Assembly (NCBI GenBank): GCA_902806345.1
Contig: CADCWF010000365.1
Location: 1 to 48,582, forward strand
DNA: 48,582 bases
Direction of reading: 5' to 3'
Origin: an uncultured Thermomicrobiales bacterium
Lineage (GTDB): Bacteria > Chloroflexota > Chloroflexia > Thermomicrobiales > UBA6265
In this document: positions 34,312 through 47,104 of the stretch, piece after piece
Layout: the number at the start of each line of letters is the position of its first letter
Numbering within the stretch: position 1 is the stretch's first letter
Made by a program: the position numbers and the translations under genes
Notes under the pieces: model-generated
Database searches by the model: none
What the model was told of the DNA's origin: nothing
What the model saw: only the letters and a program-made list of their open reading frames with translations

Positions 34312-35568
34312 GTGGATCAGGTCCAGAGCGCACCCCCCGCCCCCAAGAAGGTCTGCCTCGCCTACTCCGGTGGCCTCGACACCTCCTGCATCATCCCCTG
34401 GCTGAAGGAGACCTACGACGGCTGCGAGGTCGTCGCGGTCGCCGTCGATGTCGGCCAACCGGACGACCTCTCCGGGGTCGAGGCCAAGGCGCTCGCCAGC
34501 GGCGCCGCGACGTGCCACGTCATCGACGCCCGCGAGGAGTTCGTCCGCGAGTACGCCTTCCCCACCCTCCGCGCTGGCGCCGTCTACGAGCGGAAGTACC
34601 TGCTCGGGACCTCGATGGCGCGACCGGTCATCGCCAAGCACCAGGTCGAGATCGCCCTCCTGGAAGGGTGCGACGCGCTTGCTCACGGCTGCACAGGCAA
34701 GGGGAACGACCAGGTCCGCTTCGAGCTGACCTACCAAACCCTGGCCCCGCAGCTCGCCGTGATCGCACCCTGGCGCTCGTGGCACATCCGCTCCCGCGAG
34801 GACGCTATCGCCTACGCCGCTGCCAAGGGCGTCCCGGTCCAGGCGACAGCCGCCAAGATCTACAGCCTCGACGGCAACGTCTGGCACCTTTCGCACGAGG
34901 GCGGCGCCCTCGAAGACCCGTGGAACGAGCCGCCCGCGGACTCCTACAGCATGACGGTGGCGCCGGAGGAGGCGCCGGACGAGCCCGCCTACGTCACCGT
35001 CGGCTTCGAGCAGGGCTGGCCGGTCGCGCTCGACGGGCAGCGGCTCGACCCGCTCGACCTCGTCTCGGCCCTGAACGGGCTGGCCGCCGCCCACGGCGTC
35101 GGCCGGATCGACCTCCTCGAGAACCGGCTGGTCGGGATGAAGAGCCGCGGCGTCTACGAGACACCCGGCGGCACCCTCCTCTCGACCGCCCACCGCGAAT
35201 TGGAGCATCTGACGCTCGACAAGGCGACGATGCGCCAGAAGGACGCCCTGGCGCTGACCTACGCCGACCTCGTCTACAACGGCCAGTGGTTCTCGCCGCT
35301 GCGGGAGGCGCTGGACGCCTTCGTCGACAAGACCCAGGAGCCGGTCACCGGCGAGGTCCGGCTGAAGCTCTACAAGGGAACCGCATCCGCGGTTGGACGG
35401 CGCTCGCCGTTCGGCCTCTACCGCGAGGATCTGGCGACCTTCGGCGAAGACGACGTCTATCGACAGGCGGACGCCGAGGGGTTCATCCGGCTGTTCGGTC
35501 TCGGACAGAAGGTGGCCGCCAACCGGGCGCGCCGCATGAGCGAGGAGCAAGCGGGGGTGCAGGGATGA
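34312..35568 (+). CDS. argG: Argininosuccinate synthase
   Basis: A 418-residue enzyme that joins citrulline and aspartate with ATP to form argininosuccinate. The N-type ATP-pyrophosphatase loop SGGLDTS is at residues 19-25. Substrate-binding segments [16 protein letters not shown] and [15 protein letters not shown] are complete, and the C-terminus ([14 protein letters not shown], then the final helix) is standard. The start is the GTG at 34312, with AAGGGAG seven bases upstream. It has its own promoter and a 200-base leader, and lies upstream of the T-box and the carbamoyltransferase genes that supply citrulline. argH is not in the window. Confidence 0.93.
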
Positions 35569-35614
35569 TGGTCTCGGCAGGGGGGGGCGTTTCCCGCTCT
35601 CCGCTCGGGCCGTT

Positions 35615-35648
35615 GGCGCGCCGACGGTCCCGTCCGGCGCGCCGACGG
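35615..35648. repeat. 13-bp direct repeat with 21-bp period
   Basis: GGCGCGCCGACGG occurs at 35615-35627 and 35636-35648. The period of 21 bp is two helical turns, placing both copies on one face of the DNA. It lies about 85 bases upstream of the T-box leader and just after argG, so it may be an operator or part of the end of argG. Confidence 0.4.
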
Positions 35649-35730
35649 CCGTAACCCGGTCCGCTCGGCGCAACGCAACCGCACAACCGAATCCTCCGTC
35701 GCCGCTCCGAGCGGCGACTCGCCCGCGTTG

Positions 35731-36050
35731 ACGGGGAAGAGTACGGAGGCGAGACGCCAAAGCGACCCGGGGAGGGTGGAAGCCCGGGATCGGCGACCCG
35801 CCCCGGAACGCGCCCCCGAGCGGCCGGCCGAAGAAAGCCTTGATCGACGGCTCTTATCCGTCTTCGGGCCAGTAGGACCGGGTGGGTGGCCCCCACGCCA
35901 ACAACAGCCGAGAGTGGCGCGGCCCCGGGATGTGCCCGGCTTGTCGCGTCAGAGGGGTGGTACCACGGGAGCCGACGCCTCCCGTCCCTTCGGTCCGGTC
36001 GCGGTCTTCCGCGCCGGCGCCGGGCGTCCAGCCATCGGCAGCCGAAGGGG
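35731..36050 (+). promoter_or_regulatory. T-box leader with predicted Arg (CGC) specifier, translational type
   Basis: The leader has all main T-box parts in order. Stem I: GGGGAAGAGTA at 35733-35743 holds the AGTA of the specifier loop; the apical region reads AAAGCGACCCGGGG then GTGGAAGCCCGGG. On the returning strand GAA at 35806-35808 is followed by CGC (35809-35811) and a purine, and CCCC closes on GGGG. AGTAGGACC (35871) and ACAGCCGAGAGTGG (35903) follow in the stem II/III region. The antiterminator AGGGGTGGTACCACGGGAG (35953) carries the UGGU bulge for an uncharged tRNA ending ACCA, and ACGGGAG pairs with CTCCCGT. CCCTTCGG (35986-35993) is complementary to CCGAAGGG (36042-36049), which includes the Shine-Dalgarno of the next gene. 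Uncharged tRNA-Arg should therefore free the ribosome-binding site. Confidence 0.88.
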
Positions 36051-36057
36051 GTCCATC

Positions 36058-37179
36058 ATGTCCATGCCCGAAGCGTCCTCCGCCCAGAGCTACCCCGTCC
36101 CCAACCCGACGCCGCCCGGTCTGACGACCGTGGCCCCCGCGTACGACCCGCTGGCCGACGCGCTGGCGCCGCGCGTCCTCTCGCTCGGCGGTGCGGTCGG
36201 TGAGAAGCTGCCGGCGTTCACCATCGGCGCCCGGCTCCAGGGCCGGAGCGTCCTCCACGACACCGACCTGACGCGCGACGAGATCGGCGAGGTGCTGGAG
36301 ACTTCGGCCCGGCTGAAGGCGCTCCGCAGGGCCGGCCGGCCCCATTCCTACCTGGCCGGCAAGACGCTCGGGATGGTCTTCCAGCACCCCAGCACGCGGA
36401 CGCGGGTGGCGTTCGAGGCGGGCATGGCCCAGCTCGGCGGGCAGGCGATCTTCCTCGGCGTCAACGATCTCCAGATGAAGCGGGGCGAGACGATCGCCGA
36501 CACGGCCCAGGTGCTCAGCCGCTACGTCGACGGCATCGTCGCCCGCGTCGCCCTCCACTCCGACCTGGAGAAGATGGCCACGGCCGCCACGATCCCGGTC
36601 CTGAACGGCCTGACCGACCGCAGCCACCCGATGCAGGCGCTCTCCGACCTGCTGACCTTGCGGGAGCGGTTCGGCGGCCTAGCGGGGTTGAAGCTGGCCT
36701 ACCTCGGCGACGGCAACAACGTCGCCCAGTCGCTGCTGCTCTCCTGCGCCGTGATGGGGACAAGCGTCAGCGTCGCCTCGCCGGCGGGCTTCGAGCCGGA
36801 CCCGGAGGTGGTCAACCAGGCCAGGTGGCTCGCCGCCGCCTCCGGCGCCGGCAACACCGTCGAGGTGGGCAGCGATCCGTTCGCCGCCGCCGAGGGCGCG
36901 GATGCGGTCTACACCGATGTCCACGTCAGCATGGGCCACAAGGACGGTCCGGCGCGGGCGGTGGCGCTGGCGCCCTTCAAGGTGACCCGAGCCATCATGG
37001 CGGCGGCGAAGCCGGAGGCGGTCTTCATGCACTGCCTGCCGATGCACCGCGACGAGGAGGTCGAGACCGCCGTCGCCGACGGCCCGCAGTCGATCATCTT
37101 CGACCAGGCGGAGAACCGGCTCCACCTCCACAAGGGCATCCTGCTGCACACGCTGTGCAGCCAGCCCCAGGGGTTTTAG
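36058..37179 (+). CDS. argF: Ornithine carbamoyltransferase, first of two tandem copies
   Basis: A 373-residue carbamoyltransferase that makes citrulline from ornithine and carbamoyl phosphate. Carbamoyl-phosphate ligands are in FQHPSTRTRVAFEAG and in NGLTDRSHPMQALSDLL (His and Gln of HPxQ); ornithine contacts are in LGDGNNVAQSL, TDVHVSMG and HCLPMHRDEEV. It carries some 60 extra N-terminal residues rich in Pro and Ala before the usual LQGRSVL start. The ATG at 36058 is fixed by AGGGG eight bases upstream, the same site that the T-box can mask. It heads the arginine/lysine gene group, and its stop is six bases before the second copy. Confidence 0.9.
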   Translation: MSMPEASSAQSYPVPNPTPPGLTTVAPAYDPLADALAPRVLSLGGAVGEKLPAFTIGARLQGRSVLHDTDLTRDEIGEVLETSARLKALRRAGRPHSYLAGKTLGMVFQHPSTRTRVAFEAGMAQLGGQAIFLGVNDLQMKRGETIADTAQVLSRYVDGIVARVALHSDLEKMATAATIPVLNGLTDRSHPMQALSDLLTLRERFGGLAGLKLAYLGDGNNVAQSLLLSCAVMGTSVSVASPAGFEPDPEVVNQARWLAAASGAGNTVEVGSDPFAAAEGADAVYTDVHVSMGHKDGPARAVALAPFKVTRAIMAAAKPEAVFMHCLPMHRDEEVETAVADGPQSIIFDQAENRLHLHKGILLHTLCSQPQGF

Positions 37180-37184
37180 GCGCG

Positions 37185-38180
37185 ATGGGCGGACGCGGCG
37201 GCACGGGGGTTCGGGAGCACGGGGGGGCGGCGCTGCCGCCGGCGGTCGATGCCGGTCGGCTGCGGGGCCGGAGCGTGCTCTCCGACCTCGACCTCTCGGC
37301 GGCGGACGTCGCCGACCTGCTCGACACCGGTGCCCGCCTGAAGGCGATGCGGCTCCGCCACGAACCGCACCCCTTCCTGGCCGGCAAGACGCTCGGGCTG
37401 ATCTTCCAGCACCCCAGCACCCGGACCCGCAACGCGTTCCAGGCCGGAATGGAGCAGCTTGGCGGCCACGCGACCTTCCTCGGCGCCTCGGAGTCGCAGA
37501 TGACGCGGGGCGAGACGATCGCCGACACGGCCCGGATCATGAGCCGCTACGTCGACGCCGTCGCCGCCCGCTTCGCCCGGCACGAGGAGATGGAGGAGTT
37601 CGCGGCGAGCGCCTCGGTGCCTGTCTACAACGCCCTCTCGGAACGGTTCCACCCGATCGAGGCGTTGAGCGATCTGCTGGCGCTGCGCGAGCGGTTCGAG
37701 GATCTGAAGGGGGTGAAGCTCGCCTACCTCGGCGACGGCAACAACGTCTGCCACTCGCTGCTGGTCTCCGGCGCCACGGCCGGGCTCCACGTCGCCGTGG
37801 CGGCGCCGCCGGAGCACCGGCCGGACCCGGCGATCGTCGCCGCGGCCGAGGCGCGGGCGGCCGGGCCCGGCGGCCGGGTGGAGATCACCGACGACCCCTT
37901 CGCCGCCGCGGCCGGGGCGGACGCGGTCTACACCGACGTCCACGAGAGCATGGGCGAGCCGACCGACGACGCCAAGAAGGCGTCACTCGCCCCCTACAAG
38001 GTGACCGAAGCGATCATGGCCGTGACGCGGCCGGGGGGGGTCTTCATGCACTGCCTGCCGATGCGCCGGGGCGAGGAGGTGGAGGAGGCGGTGGCGGACG
38101 GCCCGCGCTCGATCGTCTTCGAGCAGGCCGAGCACCGGCTCCACATGCACAAGGCGATGCTGCTGCTCACGCTCGGCTGA
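37185..38180 (+). CDS. Carbamoyltransferase paralogue with altered active-site motifs
   Basis: A 331-residue paralogue of the preceding gene, clearly of the ornithine/aspartate carbamoyltransferase family (FQHPSTRTRNAFQAG, LGDGNNVCHSL, TDVHESMGEP, HCLPMRRGEEV). Two active-site positions differ. The HPxQ motif that binds carbamoyl phosphate reads HPIE (NALSERFHPIEALSD), replacing Gln with Glu. The HCLPxH motif reads HCLPMRR, as I recall from acetylornithine and succinylornithine transcarbamylases. It may use a modified amine, form a mixed oligomer with the first copy, or be regulatory. The ATG at 37185 follows the first copy by five bases, so both are probably under the same T-box. Confidence 0.82.
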   Translation: MGGRGGTGVREHGGAALPPAVDAGRLRGRSVLSDLDLSAADVADLLDTGARLKAMRLRHEPHPFLAGKTLGLIFQHPSTRTRNAFQAGMEQLGGHATFLGASESQMTRGETIADTARIMSRYVDAVAARFARHEEMEEFAASASVPVYNALSERFHPIEALSDLLALRERFEDLKGVKLAYLGDGNNVCHSLLVSGATAGLHVAVAAPPEHRPDPAIVAAAEARAAGPGGRVEITDDPFAAAAGADAVYTDVHESMGEPTDDAKKASLAPYKVTEAIMAVTRPGGVFMHCLPMRRGEEVEEAVADGPRSIVFEQAEHRLHMHKAMLLLTLG

Positions 38181-38219: not shown

Positions 38220-38235
38220 GGACGGAGGGGTTGCG

Positions 38236-38400
38236 ATGACAGGGACGTGTCCGGAGTGCGCGGCGGAGTTCGAGCTAAGCGGGGTCGAGCAGGGCGAGAT
38301 CGTGCCCTGCCCCGAGTGCGGGGTCGAGCTCGAAGTGCTCAACGCCAACCCGGTCCAGCTCGGGCTGGCGCCGGAAGAGGGCGAGGACTGGGGCGAGTAA
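38236..38400 (+). CDS. lysW: Amino-group carrier protein LysW
   Basis: A 54-residue acidic carrier protein. It has the zinc-ribbon Cys pairs CPEC near residue 5 and CPEC near 25, and ends in EDWGE, the conserved C-terminus whose final Glu is joined to the amino group of aminoadipate or glutamate. The tethered amino acid is then processed by LysZ, LysY and LysJ and released by LysK. The ATG at 38236 has GGAGGGG five bases upstream. The gene lies directly downstream of the carbamoyltransferases and upstream of the ligases, separated from the latter by a repeat-built hairpin. Confidence 0.93.
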
Positions 38401-38511: not shown

Positions 38512-39456
38512 ATGGCGACGGTAGGCGTGCTCTGCGGGCGGATGCGGGTCGAAGAGAAACTGCTGGTGGCGGCGCTGGCCGAGGCCGGCGTCGTCGCCGA
38601 GCCCGTCGTCCCCACCGGCCTGCCGCTGCCGCCGAGCCGCCATCCGTTGCCGCCGGCGCCGGCGTTCGCCGGCGGCCCCCAAACGGACCTCCTCATCGAC
38701 CGCTTCCCGGAGCGGGCCGCCGGCGCGGCGCTGATCGCCGCCAGTCGGGCAACCGGCTCCGCCACCATCGACGCCGGGCTGGCGGCGACGGGCGACCGCC
38801 TCACGGTGGCGACGGCGCTGGCGGCGGCCGGGGTGCCGCGGCCGAACACCCACTTCGCCTGGTCGGCCGAAGCGGCGCTGGCCGCGGTCGCCTCGCTCGG
38901 CTATCCGGCGACGCTGCTGCCGCTCGCCTACCGCAGCGCGGCGACGCCGCTGCTCGATATCGACGCGGCGGAGGCGGTGATCGAGCACCGGGCCGTGCTC
39001 GGCAACGGGGTCGAGACGCTGGCGCTGGTCCAGGCCGGGGTCGCGGTCGGGTGCTCGTCGTGCTTCGTCGTGGTCGACGGCGAACCGGTCGCCAGCGACG
39101 GCGGCCCCGAGCCCGACGCCGTGGCGCCGAACCTGGCGGCCCGCGCGGCGCACGCGCTCGGCGCCCGCCTGATCGGGGTGGTGGTCGCCGAGACCACCCA
39201 CGGACCGGTCGTCTGGGACGTCCAGCCCGTCCCCGAGTTCCGGCACGCCCGGCCGCTCTCCGGCCGCCCGGTCGCCGAGGCGGTGGCGGCGATGGCGATC
39301 CGGCTGCTGAAGGCGCGGGCACCGCAACAGGAGCCGATGGACCCACACGACCCTCGGCCGGTTCTCGCCCCCGCGGGGCACCTCAACGGGCACGGCAACG
39401 GGAACCTTCGGGCCGAGGCCGGGGAGGTGCGCGATGGCGTCGCCCTCTTTGCTTGA
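38512..39456 (+). CDS. Degenerate LysX/RimK-like ATP-grasp paralogue, probably without ligase activity
   Basis: A 314-residue protein. Its start MATVGVLCGRMRVEEKLLVAALAEAGV aligns with the LysX-type genes at 40525 and 41571. The middle domain then keeps the spacing (GDRLTVATALAAAGVPRPNT) but loses key residues. [12 protein letters not shown] becomes LPLAYRSAATPLL, DRDIRAYVVGER becomes AVGCSSCFVVVDGE, and the metal-binding EVNxxxEF becomes DVQPVPEF. Thus the ATP lysines and metal ligands appear lost. The C-terminus adds a Pro/His/Gly-rich tail. It is translated with lysK (23-base overlap) and kept in frame, so it is probably a maintained pseudoenzyme, perhaps a partner of one ligase or of LysW. 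No ribosome-binding site is strong; GAGGAA lies about 8 bases before the ATG. Confidence 0.7.
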   Translation: MATVGVLCGRMRVEEKLLVAALAEAGVVAEPVVPTGLPLPPSRHPLPPAPAFAGGPQTDLLIDRFPERAAGAALIAASRATGSATIDAGLAATGDRLTVATALAAAGVPRPNTHFAWSAEAALAAVASLGYPATLLPLAYRSAATPLLDIDAAEAVIEHRAVLGNGVETLALVQAGVAVGCSSCFVVVDGEPVASDGGPEPDAVAPNLAARAAHALGARLIGVVVAETTHGPVVWDVQPVPEFRHARPLSGRPVAEAVAAMAIRLLKARAPQQEPMDPHDPRPVLAPAGHLNGHGNGNLRAEAGEVRDGVALFA

Positions 39457-40528
39457 GACCGCTGCCCCCGGCGCCACTGTGGCGAATCCCGAGGACGTCG
39501 ACCTCCTCCACCGGATCGTCACGATCGAGAGCCTCTCCGACGGCGAGGGCGAGGCGGTCGCCGAACTCGTCCGACAGATGGCGGCGCGCGGCTTCGACGC
39601 CGAGGTCGACGTCGCCGGCAACGCGGTCGGCCGGATCGGCGCCGGGGAGCGGCACATCGTTCTCCTCGGCCACATCGACACCGTCCCGGGGAGGATCCCG
39701 GTCCGGATCGAGAACGCCGTCCTCCACGGCCGCGGCGCGGTCGACGCCAAGGGGCCGCTCTGCACCTTCGTCGCCGCCGCGGCCGCCGCCGCGCGACGGC
39801 TGAATGCCCGCGTGACCGTCGTCGGCGCCGTCGGCGAGGAGCGGATGGGCTCGCCGGGTGCGACGGCCGTCGCCTGCTGGCCCGCGCCCGACCTCTGCGT
39901 CATCGGCGAGCCGAGCGGCTGGGATGCCGTCTGCCTCGGCTACCGGGGGACCCTCTCGTTCATTTACGAGCTGGTCCAGCCGTCGCGCCACACGGCGGGA
40001 CCCGGGGAGTCGGCGGCGGAGCAGGCGGTCGCCTTCTGGAACGGCATCGTCGCCCACGCCGCCGCGCTCAACGCCGAAATCCAGCCGACCTCGACCTTCG
40101 GCACCATCACGCCGACCCTGCGGTCGATGGCCTCCGACGGTGACGGGATGGCCGACCGGGCGACCCTCTCGGTCGGGCTCCGGCTGCCGCCGGGGGTCGA
40201 TATCTCGACGTTGCTCGGGACGATCCAGGCGCTTGCGGGTCCCGCCACGATCCGGGTCGACGGCGCTCAGGAGGGGTACCGGACCGAGAAACGGTCGCCG
40301 CTGGTGCCGCCCTTCCTGCGGGCGATCCGGGCCGCGGGCGGGACGCCGCGGTTCACCCTCAAGCTCGGCACTTCCGACATGACCGTGGTCGGTCCGGCCT
40401 GGGGCTGCCCGATCGTCGCCTACGGGCCGGGCGACGCCGCGCTCGACCACACCCCGGAGGAGCGGATCGAGCTGGCCGACTACGCGCGGGCGATCCGCGT
40501 CCTGACCGACGTGCTGGAGGCGCTATGA
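39434..40528 (+). CDS. lysK: [LysW]-lysine/ornithine hydrolase LysK (M20 peptidase family)
   Basis: A 364-residue M20-family zinc hydrolase that cleaves lysine or ornithine from the C-terminal Glu of LysW. The first metal motif LLGHIDTVPG is near residue 78, followed by GRGAVDAKGPL, the catalytic Glu in VGEERMGSPGA near 134, and a metal Glu in IGEPSGWD. The C-terminal LKLGTSDMTVVG completes the site. It overlaps the upstream pseudoenzyme gene by 23 bases and the downstream ligase by four (ATGA), so the three are one translation unit. With only one lysK in the window, it probably serves both lysine and arginine pathways. Confidence 0.88.
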   Translation: MASPSLLETAAPGATVANPEDVDLLHRIVTIESLSDGEGEAVAELVRQMAARGFDAEVDVAGNAVGRIGAGERHIVLLGHIDTVPGRIPVRIENAVLHGRGAVDAKGPLCTFVAAAAAAARRLNARVTVVGAVGEERMGSPGATAVACWPAPDLCVIGEPSGWDAVCLGYRGTLSFIYELVQPSRHTAGPGESAAEQAVAFWNGIVAHAAALNAEIQPTSTFGTITPTLRSMASDGDGMADRATLSVGLRLPPGVDISTLLGTIQALAGPATIRVDGAQEGYRTEKRSPLVPPFLRAIRAAGGTPRFTLKLGTSDMTVVGPAWGCPIVAYGPGDAALDHTPEERIELADYARAIRVLTDVLEAL

Positions 40529-41460
40529 GCGGGTCCAACGGCCGGATGCCCCGCCTGGGCGTCCTCGTTTCCTACCTGCGGACGGAAGAGAAGCTGATCC
40601 TTGCCGATGCCCGCCGCCGCGGCATCCCGGTGACGCCGCTCTTCGACAAGGAGCTGGTGCTCGACTTTTCGGCGCCGACGGCGGCGGCCAGCGGCGTCGA
40701 CGTCGACGTGGTGCTCGACCGCTGCGTCGCCCACGCCCGCGCCGGCTACGCCATCCGGGCCTTCGAGCGGTGGGGCATCCCGACGCTCAACAGCGCCGAG
40801 TCGGTCCACCTCTGCGACGACAAGGCGGAGAACAGCCTGGCGCTGGAGGCGGCCGGCATCCCGACGCCGCGGACGGTCCTGGCCTTCACCATGGAGTCCG
40901 CCCTCAAGGCGTGCGAACTCGTCGGCTACCCGGCGGTGCTCAAACCCGTTGCGGGCTCCTGGGGGCGTCTGCTGGCGAAGGTGAACGGACCGGAGCAGGC
41001 GAAGGCGGTCATCGCCCAGAAGCTCGAGCTCGGTTCGGTCGGCCACGGCGTGATCTACGTCCAGGAGTTCGTGCCGAAGCCCGACCGCGACATCCGCGCC
41101 TACGTCGTCGGGGAGCGGGTGCTGGCCGCCTCCTACCGGGCCGCCGACCACTGGGTGACGAACGCGGCGCGGGGCGCCACCAGCCTCCCCTGCCCGATCA
41201 CCCCCGAGATCGAGGAGTTGTCGCTGCGGGCTTGCCAGGCCGTTGGCGCCCGGCTGGCGGGGGTCGACCTGATGGAGACGGCCGACGGGCTGACGGTGAT
41301 CGAGGTCAACTCAGGCGGCGAGTTCCGCGGCCTGATGGCCACCACCGACACCGACATCGCGGCCGAGATCGTCTCGGAGGCGATGGAAACGGCCAGGCGG
41401 GGTCGGCCCGAGCGGCGCGGCGCGGCGAAGTCGATGGCCGTGGGGCCGATGGCGGTCTGA
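40525..41460 (+). CDS. argX: LysW ligase of ArgX type (glutamate-LysW ligase) or LysX paralogue
   Basis: A 311-residue ATP-grasp ligase that attaches an amino acid to the C-terminal Glu of LysW. ATP-binding residues are intact: [17 protein letters not shown] near 137-150, YVQEFVPKPDRDIRAYVVG, and the metal site GLTVIEVNSGGEFRG near 257-268. It has EVNSGGEF where the ligase at 41571 has EVNYTMEF, and HWVTNAARGAT where that one has [11 protein letters not shown]. Since the second enzyme matches Thermus LysX in these places, I infer this one handles glutamate for arginine. That assignment is inference. The extra C-terminal residues after RRGRPERRG look disordered. Confidence 0.78.
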   Translation: MSGSNGRMPRLGVLVSYLRTEEKLILADARRRGIPVTPLFDKELVLDFSAPTAAASGVDVDVVLDRCVAHARAGYAIRAFERWGIPTLNSAESVHLCDDKAENSLALEAAGIPTPRTVLAFTMESALKACELVGYPAVLKPVAGSWGRLLAKVNGPEQAKAVIAQKLELGSVGHGVIYVQEFVPKPDRDIRAYVVGERVLAASYRAADHWVTNAARGATSLPCPITPEIEELSLRACQAVGARLAGVDLMETADGLTVIEVNSGGEFRGLMATTDTDIAAEIVSEAMETARRGRPERRGAAKSMAVGPMAV

Positions 41461-41480
41461 CGAGCAGCCCTCACCCCCAG

Positions 41481-41507
41481 CCCCTCTCCCGATGCGCGGG
41501 AGAGGGG
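41481..41507. repeat. Hairpin, copy 4 of the CCCCTCTCCCG family, inside the operon
   Basis: CCCCTCTCCCG pairs with CGGGAGAGGGG around the loop ATGCG, preceded by CCCTCACCCCCAG as in other copies. It lies between the argX-like and lysX-like genes, so a pure terminator role is unlikely unless termination is partial. Confidence 0.6.
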
Positions 41508-41570
41508 AGCACGACCATCCCGCTCGCCGCACGAATCAATCGAATTCCGTAGCTGATAGGGGAGCAAACC

Positions 41571-42470
41571 GTGGAACGTGAGCTGACGGTCGGCATGCTG
41601 ATGTCCCGCATCCGGGTCGAGGAGAAGCTGCTGCTGGCCGAGCTGGAGAAGCGGGGGGCGGCGGTCATCCGCTTCGACGACCGGGTGTTCACGCTCGACC
41701 TGCACGAGGCGCACCCGGGCATGGCCGCTTGCGACGTGGTGGTCGAGCGGTGCATCAACCACCTCCGGGCGCTCTACACGCTGAAGATGCTCGGTGACTG
41801 GGGCGTCCCCAGCGTCAACACCTACGAGGTCGCCAACATCTGCGGCGACAAGCTGCTCACCTCGGCCGCGCTGGAGAAGGCGGGCGTCCCATCGCCGCGG
41901 ACGCTCGTCGCCTTCACCCCGGAGTCGGCGCTGGCGGCCTGCGACGAGCTCGGCTACCCGCTGGTGATGAAGCCGGCGGTGGGCTCCTGGGGTCGGCTGC
42001 TGGCCCGGGTCAACGACCGCGACGCGGCCGAGGCGCTGCTGGAGCACAAGGTGACCCTCGGCTCGTTCCACCACGGCGCCTTCTACCTGCAGGAGTTCGT
42101 CGCCAAGCCGGGGCGGGACATCCGCTCGTTCGTCGTCGGCGACGAGACGATCTGCGCCATCTACCGCTCGTCGCCCCACTGGATCACGAACACGGCCCGG
42201 GGCGGCGCGGCGACCAACTGCCCGGTGACCGACGAGATCGCCGCGCTCTCGCTCGCCGCGGCAAAGGCCGTCGGCGGCGGGGTGGTGGCCGTCGATCTGG
42301 TGGAGAGCGAACGGGGGCTGCTGGTCATCGAGGTCAACTACACGATGGAGTTCCGCAACTCGATCGACACGACAGGGGTGAACATCCCGGCCAGGATCGT
42401 CGACTACGTGCTGGCGGTCGGGCGGGCGGCACGCGAGGGCCGGGCCGGAGTCCTGGCGGTGGCGGGGTGA
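41571..42470 (+). CDS. lysX: Alpha-aminoadipate-LysW ligase LysX
   Basis: A 299-residue ATP-grasp ligase closely resembling the Thermus LysX that joins alpha-aminoadipate to LysW. Matching segments include [17 protein letters not shown] near residue 130-146, [41 protein letters not shown] and [19 protein letters not shown] near 252-268. The start is the GTG at 41571 with GGGGAG six bases upstream. The gene follows a 110-base gap holding a hairpin repeat, and its stop overlaps the start of the methyltransferase gene. The presence of this enzyme implies lysine synthesis through aminoadipate, whose earlier genes are not in the window. Confidence 0.88.
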
Positions 42471-43222
42471 TGGCCGGCGCGCTCGACTACGAACGATTGG
42501 CGGTCGACTACGCCGCGAACCGACGGATCCACCCGGGCGTTATCGCGGCGCTCATCGCGGAAGGCGATCTCGGTCGCACCTCCCGCGTGCTGGAGGTCGG
42601 GTGCGGCACGGGCAACTACGCCGCCGCCTTGGCGGAAACCGTCCGTTGCGCCGTGACCGGCGTCGAGCCGTCGGGAGCCATGCTGGCGCTCGCCGCCGAG
42701 CGGGGCGGAGGGATCGTGCTCCGACAGGGCCGGGCAGAGGCGTTGCCGTGCGCCGCCGGGGTGTTCGACCTCGTCTTCTCGGTCGACGTGATCCACCACG
42801 TCGCAGACCGGGCGGCGTTCTACCGGGAGGCGTTCCGGGTGCTGGCTGCGGGCGGCAGGGTCTGCACCGCGACCGACTCCGCGGACGACATCCGTCGCCG
42901 GGTTCCGCTGTCGAGCCACTTCCCCGAGACGGTCACCGTGGAGTTGGAGCGCTATCCGGCCATCGAAACGCTCCGCACCGAGATCGCGGCGGCCGGGTTC
43001 GACGACATCGCCGAAGCGAAAGCGGAGATCGCCTATCCGCTGACCGCCGCCGACGGGTACCGGGCCCGGGCCTATTCTTCGCTCCACCTGATCGACGACG
43101 TCGCCTGGCGGCGCGGGATGCATCGACTGGAAGCGGAGTTGACAGCGGGACCGATCGCGGCGCTGTCGCTCTACACGCTGCTCTGGGGCGAAAAGCGTCC
43201 CTCGTCGTTCGGCTCAGAATGA
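42470..43222 (+). CDS. SAM-dependent methyltransferase (type 11)
   Basis: A 250-residue class I methyltransferase. The SAM-binding loop is VLEVGCGTGNYAAAL near residues 40-54, followed by GVEPSGAM, the acidic/aromatic DLVFSVDVIHHV segment and FRVLAAGGRVCTATD. The acceptor is unknown. Its ATG overlaps the lysX stop codon (TGATG), so it is translationally coupled to the lysine/arginine genes, a position where I know of no established methyltransferase. A substrate within the LysW pathway or the carrier itself is conceivable but untested; it may be an unrelated passenger. Confidence 0.82.
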   Translation: MAGALDYERLAVDYAANRRIHPGVIAALIAEGDLGRTSRVLEVGCGTGNYAAALAETVRCAVTGVEPSGAMLALAAERGGGIVLRQGRAEALPCAAGVFDLVFSVDVIHHVADRAAFYREAFRVLAAGGRVCTATDSADDIRRRVPLSSHFPETVTVELERYPAIETLRTEIAAAGFDDIAEAKAEIAYPLTAADGYRARAYSSLHLIDDVAWRRGMHRLEAELTAGPIAALSLYTLLWGEKRPSSFGSE

Positions 43223-43291
43223 CTGCGGTCCGGGCGTTTGCGGCGTCTGTACGAGCGCCGTTCTCGCTGCGGCCAACGCGGAGGAGTACCC

Positions 43292-44338
43292 ATGACTGAC
43301 GTATCGGTGATCGGGGGCAGCGGCTACGCCGGCGGCGAGCTGGTCCGCCTGCTGCTGGCCCACCCCGAGGCGACCCTCAAGCAGGTGACCTCGGAGCGCA
43401 ACGCCGGCAAGTTCGTCCGCTCGGTCCACCCGAACCTGCGGAAGGTGACCGACCTGAAGTTCTCGTCGATCGAGGCGCTGGAGCCGGTCGATGTCCTCTT
43501 CGTCGCCCTCCCCCACGGGGTGGCGATGGGCAGGATGGCCGAGCTGCGCGCCAAGGCGAGCGTCGTCATCGACCTGTCGGCCGATTTCCGGCTGCGGAAC
43601 CCGGCCGACTACCCGACCTGGTACGGCCATGAGCACGCCACGCCCGAAGCGCTGGCCGACTTCGTCTACGGCATCCCCGAGCTGCACCGGGAGGAGATCA
43701 AGGGGTCGAGCGCGATCTCCAGCGCCGGCTGCATGGCGACGACGACGATCCTCGGCCTCTACCCGCTCGTCCAGGCCGGCGTGGTCGACCTCGCCAGGCC
43801 GGTCGTCGTCGAGTGCAAGACGGGGTCGTCCGGCTCCGGCGGCGGACCGAGCCTCGGCTCCCACCACCCGGAGCGCTCCGGCGCGATGCGCTCCTTCAAG
43901 CCGACCGGCCACCGCCATTCGGCCGAGGTGATCCAGGAGCTGACGGTCGACGGCCGGGCGCCGGAGGTCGCCTTCTCGGCAACGGCGATCGAGGCGGTCC
44001 GCGGCATCCTCGCCACCTCCCACGTCTACCTCACCGAGCCGTTGGCCGACAAGGACCTCTGGGCGATCTACCGCAAGGCGTACAAGGACGAGCCGTTCAT
44101 GCGGCTCGTCAAGGAGGTGGGCGGGGTCCACCGCTACCCGGAACCGAAGCTGCTCTCCGGCACGAACTGGTGCGATGTCGGCTTCGAGCGCGACCCCCAC
44201 TCCAACCGGGTCGTCGTCATGGCCGCCCTCGACAACCTGATGAAGGGCGCGGCCGGCCAGGCCGTCCAGGCGTTCAACCTCCGCTGCGGCTTCCCGGAGA
44301 CGACCGCGCTGGAGTTCGCGGGGCTCCACCCGATCTGA
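43292..44338 (+). CDS. lysY: [LysW]-aminoadipate/glutamate phosphate reductase LysY (ArgC family)
   Basis: A 348-residue NADPH-dependent reductase that converts the LysW-bound acyl phosphate to its semialdehyde. The nucleotide loop is VIGGSGYAGGELVRLLL at the N-terminus, and the catalytic Cys is in ISSAGCMATTTILGL near residue 146. The catalytic His segment FKPTGHRHSAEV and the C-terminal NLMKGAAGQAVQAFN are typical of ArgC relatives. The ATG at 43292 has GGAGGAG about five bases upstream. It lies 69 bases after the methyltransferase, and a hairpin-rich gap separates it from lysZ. One copy probably serves both pathways. Confidence 0.9.
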   Translation: MTDVSVIGGSGYAGGELVRLLLAHPEATLKQVTSERNAGKFVRSVHPNLRKVTDLKFSSIEALEPVDVLFVALPHGVAMGRMAELRAKASVVIDLSADFRLRNPADYPTWYGHEHATPEALADFVYGIPELHREEIKGSSAISSAGCMATTTILGLYPLVQAGVVDLARPVVVECKTGSSGSGGGPSLGSHHPERSGAMRSFKPTGHRHSAEVIQELTVDGRAPEVAFSATAIEAVRGILATSHVYLTEPLADKDLWAIYRKAYKDEPFMRLVKEVGGVHRYPEPKLLSGTNWCDVGFERDPHSNRVVVMAALDNLMKGAAGQAVQAFNLRCGFPETTALEFAGLHPI

Positions 44339-44344
44339 TGTAGC

Positions 44345-44433
44345 GGATGGGCGTAGGGGATAGGGAATAGGAAACCGACGACGGTTCGGCGGCGTCCTCC
44401 GTGCTCCTATCCCCTATCCCCTACGCCCTATCC
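44345..44433. repeat. Long inverted repeat between lysY and lysZ
   Basis: The left arm (44345-44372, GGATGGGCGTAGGGGATAGG at its start) and right arm (44404-44433) are near-perfect complements, differing by two or three bases over about 28. Each arm contains GGGATAGG-type direct repeats. The resulting hairpin fills most of the 114-base gap. Confidence 0.65.
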
Positions 44434-44452
44434 ACTGACGGGGAGCGACGAC

Positions 44453-45298
44453 ATGCTGGTGATCAAGATCGGCGGCGGGGCCGCGATCGGCGAGGGCGCG
44501 TTCGCCAACTTCGCGGTCGACCTCGCCGCGCTGGCCGAGCCGTTCGTGGTCGTCCACGGCGGCAACGCGGAGTTCAGCGAGCTGAGCCGACGGCTCGGGA
44601 TGCCACCGCGGATGGTCACGTCGCAGAGCGGTCGGGTCAGCCGCTACACCGACGCGGCGACGATGGACGCGATGCTGATGGCCTACTGCGGCAAGGTCAA
44701 CAAGCGGCTCGTGGCGACGCTGCGCGCCCACGGGGTTAACGCCGTCGGCCTGAGCGCGATCGACGGCGGCATCGGCGTCGGCCGCCGCAAGCCCGTCCTC
44801 CGAGGGACCGAGGAGGGCAAGACGAAGGTGCTCCGCGACGACCATGCCGGCACCCTCGAGACTGTCGACCCGGCGCTGGTCCGGCTGCTGCTGGCCAACG
44901 GGTTCCAGCCGGTGCTGACGCCGCCCGCGCTCGGCGAGGAGGGGGTGCCGATCAACGTCGACGGCGACAAGCTGGCGCTGGAGCTGGCGGTCGCCCTCGG
45001 CGCCGACGGCCTGCTCTTCTTCTCCGACACGCCGGGGCTGCTGGCGGACCGTCACGACGAGGCGAGCCTGATTCCGGAGATCGACGCGGCGGACCCGGCC
45101 ACCGCGCTCGCCGCCGCCGGCGGCCGGATGGTCGTCAAGGTCGAGGCGGCGCTCGGCGCGGTCGCCCGCGGTGTCGGCCGGGTCGTCTTCGCCGACGGCC
45201 GGGCCGAAGCTCCCGTCTCCCGCGCGATGGCGGGAGCGGGCACCGTCGTCCGGGCGCCGACCTCGGTAGTCGCTGGCGGGAGCGGGAGCGACGGATGA
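44453..45298 (+). CDS. lysZ: [LysW]-aminoadipate/glutamate kinase LysZ
   Basis: A 281-residue amino-acid kinase of the acetylglutamate kinase family that phosphorylates the side-chain carboxylate of the LysW-bound amino acid. MLVIKIGGGAAIG and VVVHGGNAEFSELSRRLG form the ATP and substrate sites, RMVTSQSGRVSRYTD and YCGKVNKRLVATL are characteristic of the LysZ branch rather than ArgB, and PINVDGDKLALELAVALGADGL is the C-terminal nucleotide region. GGGGAG lies about 8 bases before the ATG. No ordinary argB or argJ is present in the window, so arginine synthesis probably depends on this carrier-bound route. Confidence 0.9.
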   Translation: MLVIKIGGGAAIGEGAFANFAVDLAALAEPFVVVHGGNAEFSELSRRLGMPPRMVTSQSGRVSRYTDAATMDAMLMAYCGKVNKRLVATLRAHGVNAVGLSAIDGGIGVGRRKPVLRGTEEGKTKVLRDDHAGTLETVDPALVRLLLANGFQPVLTPPALGEEGVPINVDGDKLALELAVALGADGLLFFSDTPGLLADRHDEASLIPEIDAADPATALAAAGGRMVVKVEAALGAVARGVGRVVFADGRAEAPVSRAMAGAGTVVRAPTSVVAGGSGSDG

Positions 45299-45413
45299 TG
45301 ACAAGCTCGGAGGCGCGCTCGGGTTGGGCGGGTCGCGCCGTCCACCGCCTTTCCGCCCCGGGCCGCCCGCCGCGCGACGCCGCGGCCAAGGGGCGAGGGA
45401 GGCCGGTTGCCCG

Positions 45414-45923
45414 ATGAACGACGTGCTCGTCCACGAGACGACGGACGACGACCGAACGGCGGTGCTCGCCTTCCTGCGGGAACTCTGGGGCGGCGAAGAG
45501 ATGGTCGTCCACGACGAGGTGCTTCGCCCGGCCGAGCTGCCGGGATATGTCGCGGTGGACCGGGGCCACTTGTTCGGCTTGGCGACCTTCCGCATCGAGG
45601 CCGACGCCGTCGAACTCGTCAGCCTCGACAGCCTCCGCCCGAGCCAGGGCGTCGGCGGCGCGCTGCTGAACCGCGTCGAGCGGGAGGCGGCGAGCCGCGG
45701 CTGCGCCTCGGTCTGGCTGATCACCACCAACGACAACCTCGGCGCGCTCCGCTTCTACCAGAAGCGCGGCTACCGGATCGTCCGCGTCGACCCCGGCGCG
45801 GTCGACCGGGCGCGCGCTCGCAAGCCGGCGATCCCCCTCGTCGGGGACGACGGCATCCCGATCCGCGACGAGCTCGTGCTCGAGAAGAGCCTGCCAGGGG
45901 TGGGCCAGGAGGAGACCGGATGA
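45414..45923 (+). CDS. GNAT-family N-acetyltransferase
   Basis: A 169-residue GNAT acetyltransferase. The acyl-CoA-binding loop is RPSQGVGGALLNRVEREAASRG near residues 78-99, preceded by VELVSLDSL and followed by WLITTNDNLGALRFYQKRGYRIV, the typical C-terminal strand and helix. It ends KSLPGVGQEETG. The ATG at 45414 has GGGAGG about 11 bases upstream. Its last codons overlap the lysJ start (ATGA), so the two are coupled. Acetylation of an amino acid, LysW or another protein is possible; the acceptor cannot be told from sequence, and classical arginine synthesis by N-acetylglutamate is not otherwise represented. Confidence 0.82.
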   Translation: MNDVLVHETTDDDRTAVLAFLRELWGGEEMVVHDEVLRPAELPGYVAVDRGHLFGLATFRIEADAVELVSLDSLRPSQGVGGALLNRVEREAASRGCASVWLITTNDNLGALRFYQKRGYRIVRVDPGAVDRARARKPAIPLVGDDGIPIRDELVLEKSLPGVGQEETG

Positions 45924-47104
45924 GCACCGTCATGAACCATCTCGACCTCGCCGCCGTCCAGGCGTCGGAGCAGGAGCACCAGGCGGCCCTCTACGCCAAG
46001 CGGGACATCGCGCTGGTACGGGGCGAGGGGCCGTACCTCTACGACAGCGACGGCAAGCGCTACCTGGACGCGATGAGCAATTACGGCGTCGCCGTCCTCG
46101 GCCACGCCGACCCGGAGTTCGCCGCGGCGCTGGCCGACCAACTCGCGACGCTGGCGACCTGCCACCAGAGCTTTTTCAGCGACACGCGGGCGGCGTTCCT
46201 GGACGAGCTGGCGACGATCGCGCCCGAGGGGTTGGCCAAGTCGTTCCTCTCCAACTCGGGGGCGGAGGCGGTCGAGGCGGCGTTGAAGTTTGCCCGCGCC
46301 GCGACCGGCCGGCCCCGCTTCGTCGCGCTCAAGCGCGGCTACCACGGGCGCACCCTCGGCGCCCTGGCGGTTACCGCCGACACCAAGTACCGGGCGCCGT
46401 TCGAGCCGCTGGTGCCGGAGACGGTCCACGTCCCGTTCGACGACGCCGCGGCGCTGGACGCCGCCATCGACGAGACGGTCGCCGCCGTCATCCTGGAGCC
46501 GATCCAGGGTGAGGCCGGCGTCTTTCCGGCGAGCGCGGAATCGTTGGCCGCGGCGCGCCGGCTGACGCGGGAGCGCGGGGCGCTCCTGATCGCGGACGAG
46601 ATCCAGACCGGATTCCGCACCGGCGCCCCGTGGGCCATCGCAGGCTCGGGTGTCGTCCCCGATATCCTGGTGACGGCCAAGGCGCTGGCCAACGGCTTCC
46701 CGATCGGCCTGACGATGGTGACCGAGCCCGTCGCCGGTTCGCTCCCGAGCGGCGCCCACGGCTCGACCTTCGGCGGCAACCCGCTCGCCTGCCGGGCCGG
46801 TCTCGTCACCCTCAAGGCGCTCCGCGACCGCGGCCTCTACGAGCGGAGCGCAACCCTCGGCACCGAGATCGTCGAGGAGATCAGGGGGCTGGGCGCGGCG
46901 AAGGTGCGGGCGGTGCGCGGGCGCGGATTGATGATCGGCGTCGAGCTGAAGGAGCGGGTGACGCCGACGCTGCGGGCGCTCCAGGAGCGCGGCGTCCTCG
47001 TCCTCCCTGCCGGGCCGGTCACCTTCCGGTTGCTGCCGCCGCTCGTCTGGGAGCGCCAACAGGTGGACGAGCTGCTGGCGGCGCTGAGAGAAACCCTGGG
47101 ATAG
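45920..47104 (+). CDS. lysJ: [LysW]-aminoadipate/glutamate semialdehyde transaminase LysJ
   Basis: A 394-residue class III pyridoxal-phosphate aminotransferase that aminates the LysW-bound semialdehyde to give LysW-lysine or LysW-ornithine. The PLP lysine is near residue 254 in DILVTAKALANGFPIG; the cofactor phosphate site is FLSNSGAEAVEAALKFAR, and the cofactor ring Asp is in LLIADEIQTGFRTG. GSTFGGNPLACRAGL is the usual late motif. It belongs to the ArgD family, and its place beside lysZ and lysY assigns it to the carrier route. It is the last gene of the group; the insertion sequence begins about 250 bases downstream. Confidence 0.9.
   Translation: MSTVMNHLDLAAVQASEQEHQAALYAKRDIALVRGEGPYLYDSDGKRYLDAMSNYGVAVLGHADPEFAAALADQLATLATCHQSFFSDTRAAFLDELATIAPEGLAKSFLSNSGAEAVEAALKFARAATGRPRFVALKRGYHGRTLGALAVTADTKYRAPFEPLVPETVHVPFDDAAALDAAIDETVAAVILEPIQGEAGVFPASAESLAAARRLTRERGALLIADEIQTGFRTGAPWAIAGSGVVPDILVTAKALANGFPIGLTMVTEPVAGSLPSGAHGSTFGGNPLACRAGLVTLKALRDRGLYERSATLGTEIVEEIRGLGAAKVRAVRGRGLMIGVELKERVTPTLRALQERGVLVLPAGPVTFRLLPPLVWERQQVDELLAALRETLG

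Follow-up and report, generated by a model that had tools for sequence, protein, structure and literature searches.

Between argG and argF1 of an uncultured Thermomicrobiales bacterium lies a leader that resembles a T-box riboswitch and is open from end to end in the reading frame of the gene behind it, which raises the question of what it senses, how it acts on that gene and whether ribosomes read it. The window, the whole stretch of DNA analysed here, comprises 48,582 nucleotides (contig CADCWF010000365.1). We consider it quite probable that the leader is a covarying arginine T-box in which uncharged tRNA-Arg(GCG) is predicted to free the argF1 ribosome-binding site, and that its unbroken, argF1-joined frame is translated. 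What comparison among genomes shows is the specifier, a bulge that matches the tRNA, stems that covary, an arm whose two pairings exclude each other, and the lock of the leader to the argF frame.

A LysW-type arginine gene group behind one leader

A sequence-only reading of the window had placed an arginine T-box at 35731..36050, ahead of a LysW-type gene group. That gene group was borne out, with two ornithine carbamoyltransferases (TIGR00658), LysW (TIGR01206), LysX-type ligases, LysK, ArgC, LysZ and, below its model's cut-off, LysJ:

34312..35568, forward strand: argG, argininosuccinate synthase (TIGR00032, 509.5 bits)
36058..37179, forward strand: argF1, ornithine carbamoyltransferase, ATG at 36058 (TIGR00658, 362.4 bits)
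37209..38180, forward strand: argF2, second ornithine carbamoyltransferase (TIGR00658, 348.1 bits for 37275-38177)
38233..38400, forward strand: lysW carrier protein (TIGR01206, 70.2 bits, cut-off 53.2)
from 38512, forward strand: LysX-like protein, far below the LysX cut-off
from 39434, forward strand: LysK (NCBIfam)
from 40525 and from 41571, forward strand: two LysX-type ligases (NCBIfam, over cut-off)
from 42467, forward strand: methyltransferase-like ORF
from 43289, forward strand: ArgC (NCBIfam)
from 44453, forward strand: LysZ (NCBIfam)
within 45407-47104, forward strand: LysJ-like protein, the last gene (best match LysJ, below model cut-off)

The stretch from the LysX-like to the LysJ-like gene spans 38512..47104 on the forward strand, and the argF2 start is approximate, 37209 being where its match to argF1 begins. 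The argF1/argF2 tandem (window 36058-38180) recurs as a pair in many relatives, and argF1 has about 60 extra residues ahead of its family domain. ARAGORN places a 95-base tRNA-Gly inside argF1 (window 36801-36895) that is probably spurious; no tRNA was found inside argF1 at the Rfam cut-off, and a tmRNA is the only match in the window at that level.

A weak model match and a conserved family of leaders

35719..35992, forward strand: T-box leader, stem I to antisequestrator (RF00230, 33.9 bits, and family alignment A1)

The letters and coordinates given for the T-box in the sequence-only reading were right, and an RF00230 match exists, with an E-value of 7.3e-6 in a 561-base stretch and 1.5e-5 in the whole genome. 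At 33.9 bits it lies below the curated cut-off of 93 bits, a database criterion and not a structural one, and a scan at that cut-off misses the leader. Of the Rfam scan and fold that had been proposed as a check, the scan gave this sub-threshold match, while the free fold of the whole leader was unremarkable (z -0.51; equalled or bettered by 31 of 100 shuffles). Since the free fold is no more stable than those of shuffled sequences, the case rests on comparison and not on stability.

When 61 genomes of the order were searched by protein, the window's family yielded 22 argF1 loci with upstream DNA, one of them the window's own; ten of the 32 family genomes lack an argF1 leader, nine having no close argF1 match and one ending at a contig end. 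The T-box motif is present in all 22 leaders, 102-231 bases before the start of the match, and the Shine-Dalgarno sequence and start of argF1 are conserved among them. At E 0.01, 18 of the 22 match RF00230 (29.9-78.2 bits) and L038, L043, L051 and L055 do not; none reaches the cut-off. Related loci outside the family match in 19 of 20 cases, one of which (L137) reaches it, and seven argF loci of another family (L059-L065) showed no T-box motif in the 561-620 bases examined. The family sequences are mutually related, and the p-values below are guides only.

The window's genome has five RF00230 matches, and by specifier the other four are of Thr, Leu, Trp and Phe types; a clear U-run follows the T-box in three of these four (L001, L003, L004). 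A tRNA-Ala(GGC) gene lies inside this genome's leuS-type T-box (1501-1828; the gene at L002:1686-1761). Of 26 loci scanned, 4 have such a gene within a Leu-type leader, in the interval from stem II to the T-box bulge (the others being L012:1560-1633, L014:1560-1633 and L030:1666-1741), and three more, L009, L022 and L029, have it just outside the T-box match.

The specifier and its tRNA

35806..35811, forward strand: specifier loop GAA-CGC, with CGC (35809-35811) as arginine specifier in argF1's frame (22 of 22 leaders, register rule)

The CGC that the sequence-only reading took for an arginine specifier directly follows GAA (35806-35808), and GAA-CGC-(G/A), together with a UGGU bulge, recurs in all 22 homologous leaders. 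Among 30 non-arginine T-boxes, with codons assigned by motif or next gene, the specifier ends exactly 6 bases before GA(G/A) in 29, with no match in L032; here CGC stands 6 bases from the K-turn GAG and GCG stands 5. It is scarcely credible that the specifier is instead GCG (Ala), one base further along, as one base does separate GAA and codon in the Pro, Thr and Phe type T-boxes examined here and the genome has a tRNA-Ala(CGC), but the register, the arginine gene downstream and a bulge base that tracks N73 of tRNA-Arg(GCG) speak against it, and we rejected it on register and tRNA match.

The anticodons of tRNA-Arg in the window's genome, where anticodons were read from 30 of 38 tRNA matches, are TCG, GCG, CCG, TCT and CCT, with no ACG, and tRNA-Arg(GCG) ends in A73-CCA. 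Across 16 genomes the bulge base follows base 73 of tRNA-Arg(GCG) in 19 of 21 T-boxes (Fisher p 3e-4): all 7 T-boxes facing A73 (6 genomes) have UGGU, and 12 of the 14 facing G73 (10 genomes) have UGGC, the exceptions, L148 and L167, having U opposite G. Genus g95 of family f30, distant from the window's family, shares the A73/UGGU combination with it. This table draws on 4 of the 22 family genomes and excludes G352, whose acceptor stem could not be resolved, a second G373 tRNA (dense tRNA array) and T-boxes specifying Pro, Gln or Trp. At the level of sequence, such tracking is a co-change between the switch and its predicted ligand.

Covarying stems and one arm with two partners

35953..35990, forward strand: antisequestrator, with helix A1 (35953-35957 with 35986-35990), UGGU bulge (35958-35961) and helix A2
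35986..35993, forward strand: switch arm CCCUUCGG, common to helix A1 and the sequestrator
36042..36051, forward strand: CCGAAGGG (36042-36049), covering the Shine-Dalgarno sequence GAAGGGGG (36044-36051)
35974..36028, forward strand: extra pairing, weakly supported, of A2-loop GACGCC (35974-35979) with GGCGUC (36023-36028)

Comparison of leaders in related genomes, the check that had been proposed, revealed covariation as well as the conserved specifier. In alignment A1 (22 rows; L048, with a deleted hairpin, was left out of the model alignment), 34 pairs in 7 helices are 97.2% paired, and 12 of the 34 pairs change on both sides, giving 31 two-sided cells versus 5.1 in shuffles. When the partner strand is slid, pairing is reduced to 47-51%, with no more than 10 two-sided cells. 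Helices 5 and 6, those of the antisequestrator, are paired in all 22 leaders.

The arm CCCUUCGG can pair alternatively with the T-box side (35953-35957) or with CCGAAGGG over the Shine-Dalgarno sequence; this alternative had been read from the single sequence, and among the 22 leaders the anti-Shine-Dalgarno pairing recurs and its two sides change together. Of the sequestrator, 95.4% is paired and 4 cells are two-sided, and in percentage, cells and score it surpasses all 500 shuffles, while the other two of five covariation measures were reached by shuffles (number of two-sided pairs in 23 of 500, pair types in 148 of 500). Arms pair better with their own Shine-Dalgarno sequence than with those of others (-16.1 versus -14.5 kcal/mol, permutation p 5e-5), and the pairing is weak in L044 and L057. 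For the extra A2-loop pairing, 91.7% of cells are paired, but two-sided change is confined to 1 of the 6 pairs.

Constrained folding puts the sequestered state lowest in all 22 leaders, with a margin of 2.6 to 15.9 kcal/mol, which would be expected if tRNA is needed for opening; the constrained 'on' folds leave 0 to 6 of the 6 Shine-Dalgarno bases paired, with all six in L050. No U-run follows the T-box in any of the 22 family leaders (by a pattern slightly narrower than that used for relatives), and transcription termination was rejected for the window's family on this count. The earlier view that control is translational and not by termination fits both this absence and the sequestrator, which is the competing structure of the T-box class in this leader. 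When tRNA-Arg is charged, the arm would pair with the Shine-Dalgarno sequence and argF1 would be off; when it is uncharged, its 3' end would sit in the UGGU bulge, the arm would move into helix A1 and argF1 would be on. The observation made in the sequence-only reading is confirmed and its interpretation supported; it did not include the altered pseudoknot of stem IIA/B, the spread of the lineage through the phylum with relatives of terminator-like type, or the frame lock with its upstream ORF.

A variant pseudoknot marks a lineage within the phylum

35882..35910, forward strand: variant stem IIA/B, a hairpin (35882-35886 with 35892-35896) whose loop UGGC (35887-35890) pairs with GCCG (35907-35910)

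In the family leaders a hairpin loop UGGY pairs with a downstream RCCG in place of the F-box. An F-box CCG(U/A)UA is present in 33 of 34 other T-boxes examined, all but L004; its letters occur once among the 22 leaders, in L057, where they belong to stem I rather than stem IIA/B. The leader lacks the F-box CCGUNA usual in the stem IIA/B pseudoknot, while the pseudoknot itself is supported. Some T-boxes are without parts of stem II, and the replacement marks a variant T-box.

Model R1 contains the variant hairpin without the loop pairing; it was built on CGC leaders and favours CGC. The loop pairing covaries in 41 R1 matches outside the family (GGUU:AACC, GGCU:AGCC), with 13 two-sided cells (shuffles give 4.0 and sliding no more than 8) and a score that exceeds all shuffles; in these 41 matches the number of two-sided pairs and of pair types do not exceed all shuffles. 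Within the class, R1 has matches in 32 of 158 genomes, of which 22 belong to the window's family; in a sample of 400 genomes from the phylum, a set that overlaps the class set, it has them in 48. Applied to 299 genomes from a different phylum, the one to which a Desulforudis record belongs, it gave 4 weak matches only, and as candidates for a variant stem IIA/B outside the phylum these were rejected, both readable ones having a normal F-box.

Specifiers of the 41 matches are CGC in 31, CCC in 4, CGA and CCG in 2 each, and CAG and UGG in 1 each. We chose 40 places outside the family by hand from the R1 matches, mostly the strongest; 33 of these relatives have a tblastn match to a window arginine gene (argG, argF, argC, lysZ or lysW), three of them weak, at about 31% to argF, and other loci start with carA- or argH-like ORFs (by eye). 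A U-run follows the T-box in 33 of 40 relatives with a readable T-box versus 0 of 22 in the family; L152, in which no T-box motif matched, was left out of the relatives' U-run, interval and stop counts.

Judged from these sequences, the arginine T-boxes form a lineage of Chloroflexota that is marked by an altered stem IIA/B pseudoknot. The sensor lineage occurs widely across the phylum; its output looks terminator-like in most relatives, and Shine-Dalgarno sequestration is predicted here.

Several relatives depart from this arrangement. CCC or CCG (Pro) specifiers precede argC-like genes in L152, L154, L158, L159, L160 and L161, and CGC is kept ahead of argC in L148 and L165; a switch from Arg to Pro sensing is possible in those six leaders. 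L136 has two arginine T-box model matches in a row (205-294, 514-604) before one argG, L169:3036-3145 is a variant-pseudoknot T-box with CAG (Gln) before a glutamyl-tRNA synthetase-like ORF (by eye), and L139 and L140 (family f4) combine a CGA (Arg) specifier with a diverged stem IIA/B before argG-like genes.

The leader is locked to the argF reading frame

35569..36057, forward strand: stretch free of stops in argF1's frame, from the argG stop to the argF1 start, through the whole T-box (from sequence)

All 66 intervals measured (specifier to GTAG, GTAG to T-box, T-box to start codon) are divisible by three, over 27 distinct lengths; for the first two of these intervals, the 40 relatives show an even distribution modulo 3 (15/12/13 and 17/9/14). 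Summed over the 22 leaders from the upstream TGA to the argF1 start, stop counts are 0 for the frame of argF, 58 and 60 for the remaining forward frames and 47, 40 and 44 for the reverse ones. An antisense gene as the cause was rejected, each reverse frame having 40-47 stops. Between the upstream-ORF stop and stem I, outside the T-box, there are again 0 stops in argF's frame and 33 and 11 in the others (14.5 expected per frame; 22 of the 33 are the upstream-ORF stops themselves), and none of the three frames is interrupted within the upstream ORF, where 8.3 stops would be expected. The specifier frame of the 40 relatives has 144 stops versus 146 and 158, and 2 of 40 are open. As a single case, the specifier frame is open through the T-box in L138:331-481 (family f5; CGC, no U-run, before argG).

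The leader is locked to argF's frame, and from the frame counts and interval lengths we infer that ribosomes likely read it in that frame. It is unlikely that this is an ordinary translational arginine T-box with an untranslated leader, in which the frame lock is non-translational or due to relatedness. The leader amino acids are not conserved and there is no codon-position signal, with differences of 0.20/0.21/0.23 in the T-box versus 0.18/0.13/0.40 in argF1 (both in 18 chosen pairs), and the conserved Shine-Dalgarno sequence and start of argF1 would suffice for its translation. Against it speak an argF frame free of stops over 22 leaders when every other frame, forward or reverse, has at least 40, the restriction of all interval lengths to multiples of three, the openness of the variable region that separates stem I from the upstream ORF, and the lack of such bias in 40 T-boxes of the same lineage outside the family.

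An upstream ORF as a possible entry into the frame

35565..35654, forward strand: short upstream ORF, in the frame one before argF1's (predicted; counterpart in the same place in 22 of 22 leaders)
35608..35650, forward strand: 15-bp hairpin, 35608-35622 with 35636-35650, over the upstream-ORF end (read by eye)

The TGA that bounds the open frame, in the window the argG stop (35566-35568), overlaps the upstream-ORF start codon, which is ATG in 19 leaders, GTG in 1 and CTG in 2, and an SD-like purine stretch is present at this start in 18 of 22 (by eye). The ORF has 20-44 codons and is Arg-rich. Its last codon is Arg in 20 of 22 leaders (CGC in 16) and its stop is UGA in 12, UAA in 5 and UAG in 5, followed by C in 20 of 22; the window's own ORF ends CCG-TAA, not Arg-stop. 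In all 22 leaders it lies one frame before argF's and the +1 frame continues without a stop into argF, so that a +1 shift would enter argF's frame. By codon position the upstream ORF is flat (0.26/0.26/0.27; 18 chosen pairs). Its Arg-richness may come from base composition, and argF's frame over the same stretch also reads Arg-rich. Among the 22 leaders, no slippery codon or re-pairing site was recognised at the upstream-ORF ends, and no shared start codon in argF's frame was found ahead of the T-box.

A +1 shift from the upstream ORF would hypothetically be the one visible entry open to all 22 leaders, because argG was found upstream in only 11 of 22 loci (in the upstream DNA examined) and L041 and L045, with no argG upstream, have no ATG, GTG or TTG in argF's frame before stem I. 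Ribosomes would start on the upstream ORF, shift +1 at or before its stop and traverse the leader in argF1's frame. We advance only tentatively the fuller proposal of a translated T-box, in which ribosomes on the Arg-rich ORF would shift +1 near the terminal Arg codon and the stop and cross the T-box to argF, so that CGC and tRNA-Arg(GCG) would be read twice, by two coupled sensors of arginine charging.

That ribosomes enter argF's frame by reading through the argG UGA, without a frameshift, and so translate the leader seems improbable. In the window, argG and argF1 are in the same frame with one UGA and an open stretch between them, but argG was found ahead of the leader in only half of the loci and the frame is open in all, and further stops follow just after argG in L038, L048 and L049. 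That the T-box is a relic, now coding an N-terminal extension of ArgF and inactive as RNA, is very unlikely, since beyond the frame lock that favours it, the stems covary within the family, specifier and bulge are invariant, the Shine-Dalgarno sequence and arm co-change and the codon positions evolve alike; covariation, co-change and like codon positions argue for selection on the RNA and not on amino acids.

Relation to known leaders

In common with the transcriptional T-boxes of RF00230, the leader has a long stem I, specifier loop, AG-bulge region, stem II S-turn, UGGN bulge and competing arm; it differs from them in having no U-run, a different stem IIA/B pseudoknot, a score below the cut-off and a leader wholly open in the gene's frame. 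The B. subtilis at/rtp leader likewise combines a T-box with a leader peptide ORF rich in the same amino acid, but there the peptide follows the T-box, whereas here the ORF precedes it and the T-box is in the frame of the controlled gene. In prfB, a +1 frameshift occurs at a stop followed by C; the upstream ORFs share that C (20 of 22) and the +1 position of the next frame, and differ in lacking a known slippery codon, in using UGA, UAA or UAG as stop and in the hypothetical nature of the product.

T-boxes, arginine specifiers (PMC7778990) and translational T-boxes (PMC7583486) are already known, as the available parts of these papers show. The available part of PMC7583486 describes translational T-boxes as mostly having a short stem I, with a few that keep long ones; the actinobacterial ileS type there resembles the present leader in opposing an antisequestrator to a Shine-Dalgarno sequestrator and differs from it in stem I, ligand and gene, which here are long, tRNA-Arg and argF. 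Stem I here is neither ultrashort nor intermediate, as in the ileS type, and aligns to the full RF00230 stem I. CGC makes up 52% of Arg specifiers in TBDB according to the available part of PMC7778990; those T-boxes share CGC with this one, whose pseudoknot and output differ.

For the phylum, PMC2494555, in the part available, gives six T-boxes in two Chloroflexi genomes, described as ile and trp types, and PMC3766115, likewise in part, lists Chloroflexi among the phyla with T-boxes and gives T-box regulons of five Chloroflexi genomes. Nothing of this kind is described in the available parts of PMC12452182, PMC11477304, PMC4342826 and PMC13198045. In the literature covered, which does not prove absence from print, we recognised no arginine T-box in Chloroflexi and no T-box in its own gene's frame.

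Implications

The above analyses suggest that LysW-type arginine synthesis is tied by its leader to the charging of tRNA-Arg, through one sensor whose output stage differs across the lineage and whose changed pseudoknot is mostly missed by the Rfam cut-off. Riboswitch leaders are normally treated as untranslated, and here a whole T-box is free of stops in the frame of the gene behind it, across 22 genomes that differ by many indels. Should ribosomes traverse the leader, its fold and the translating ribosomes would compete as tRNA sensors on the same nucleotides, and if the translated T-box is true, CGC codons and tRNA-Arg(GCG) would be read by the ribosome and by folded RNA within one RNA stretch.
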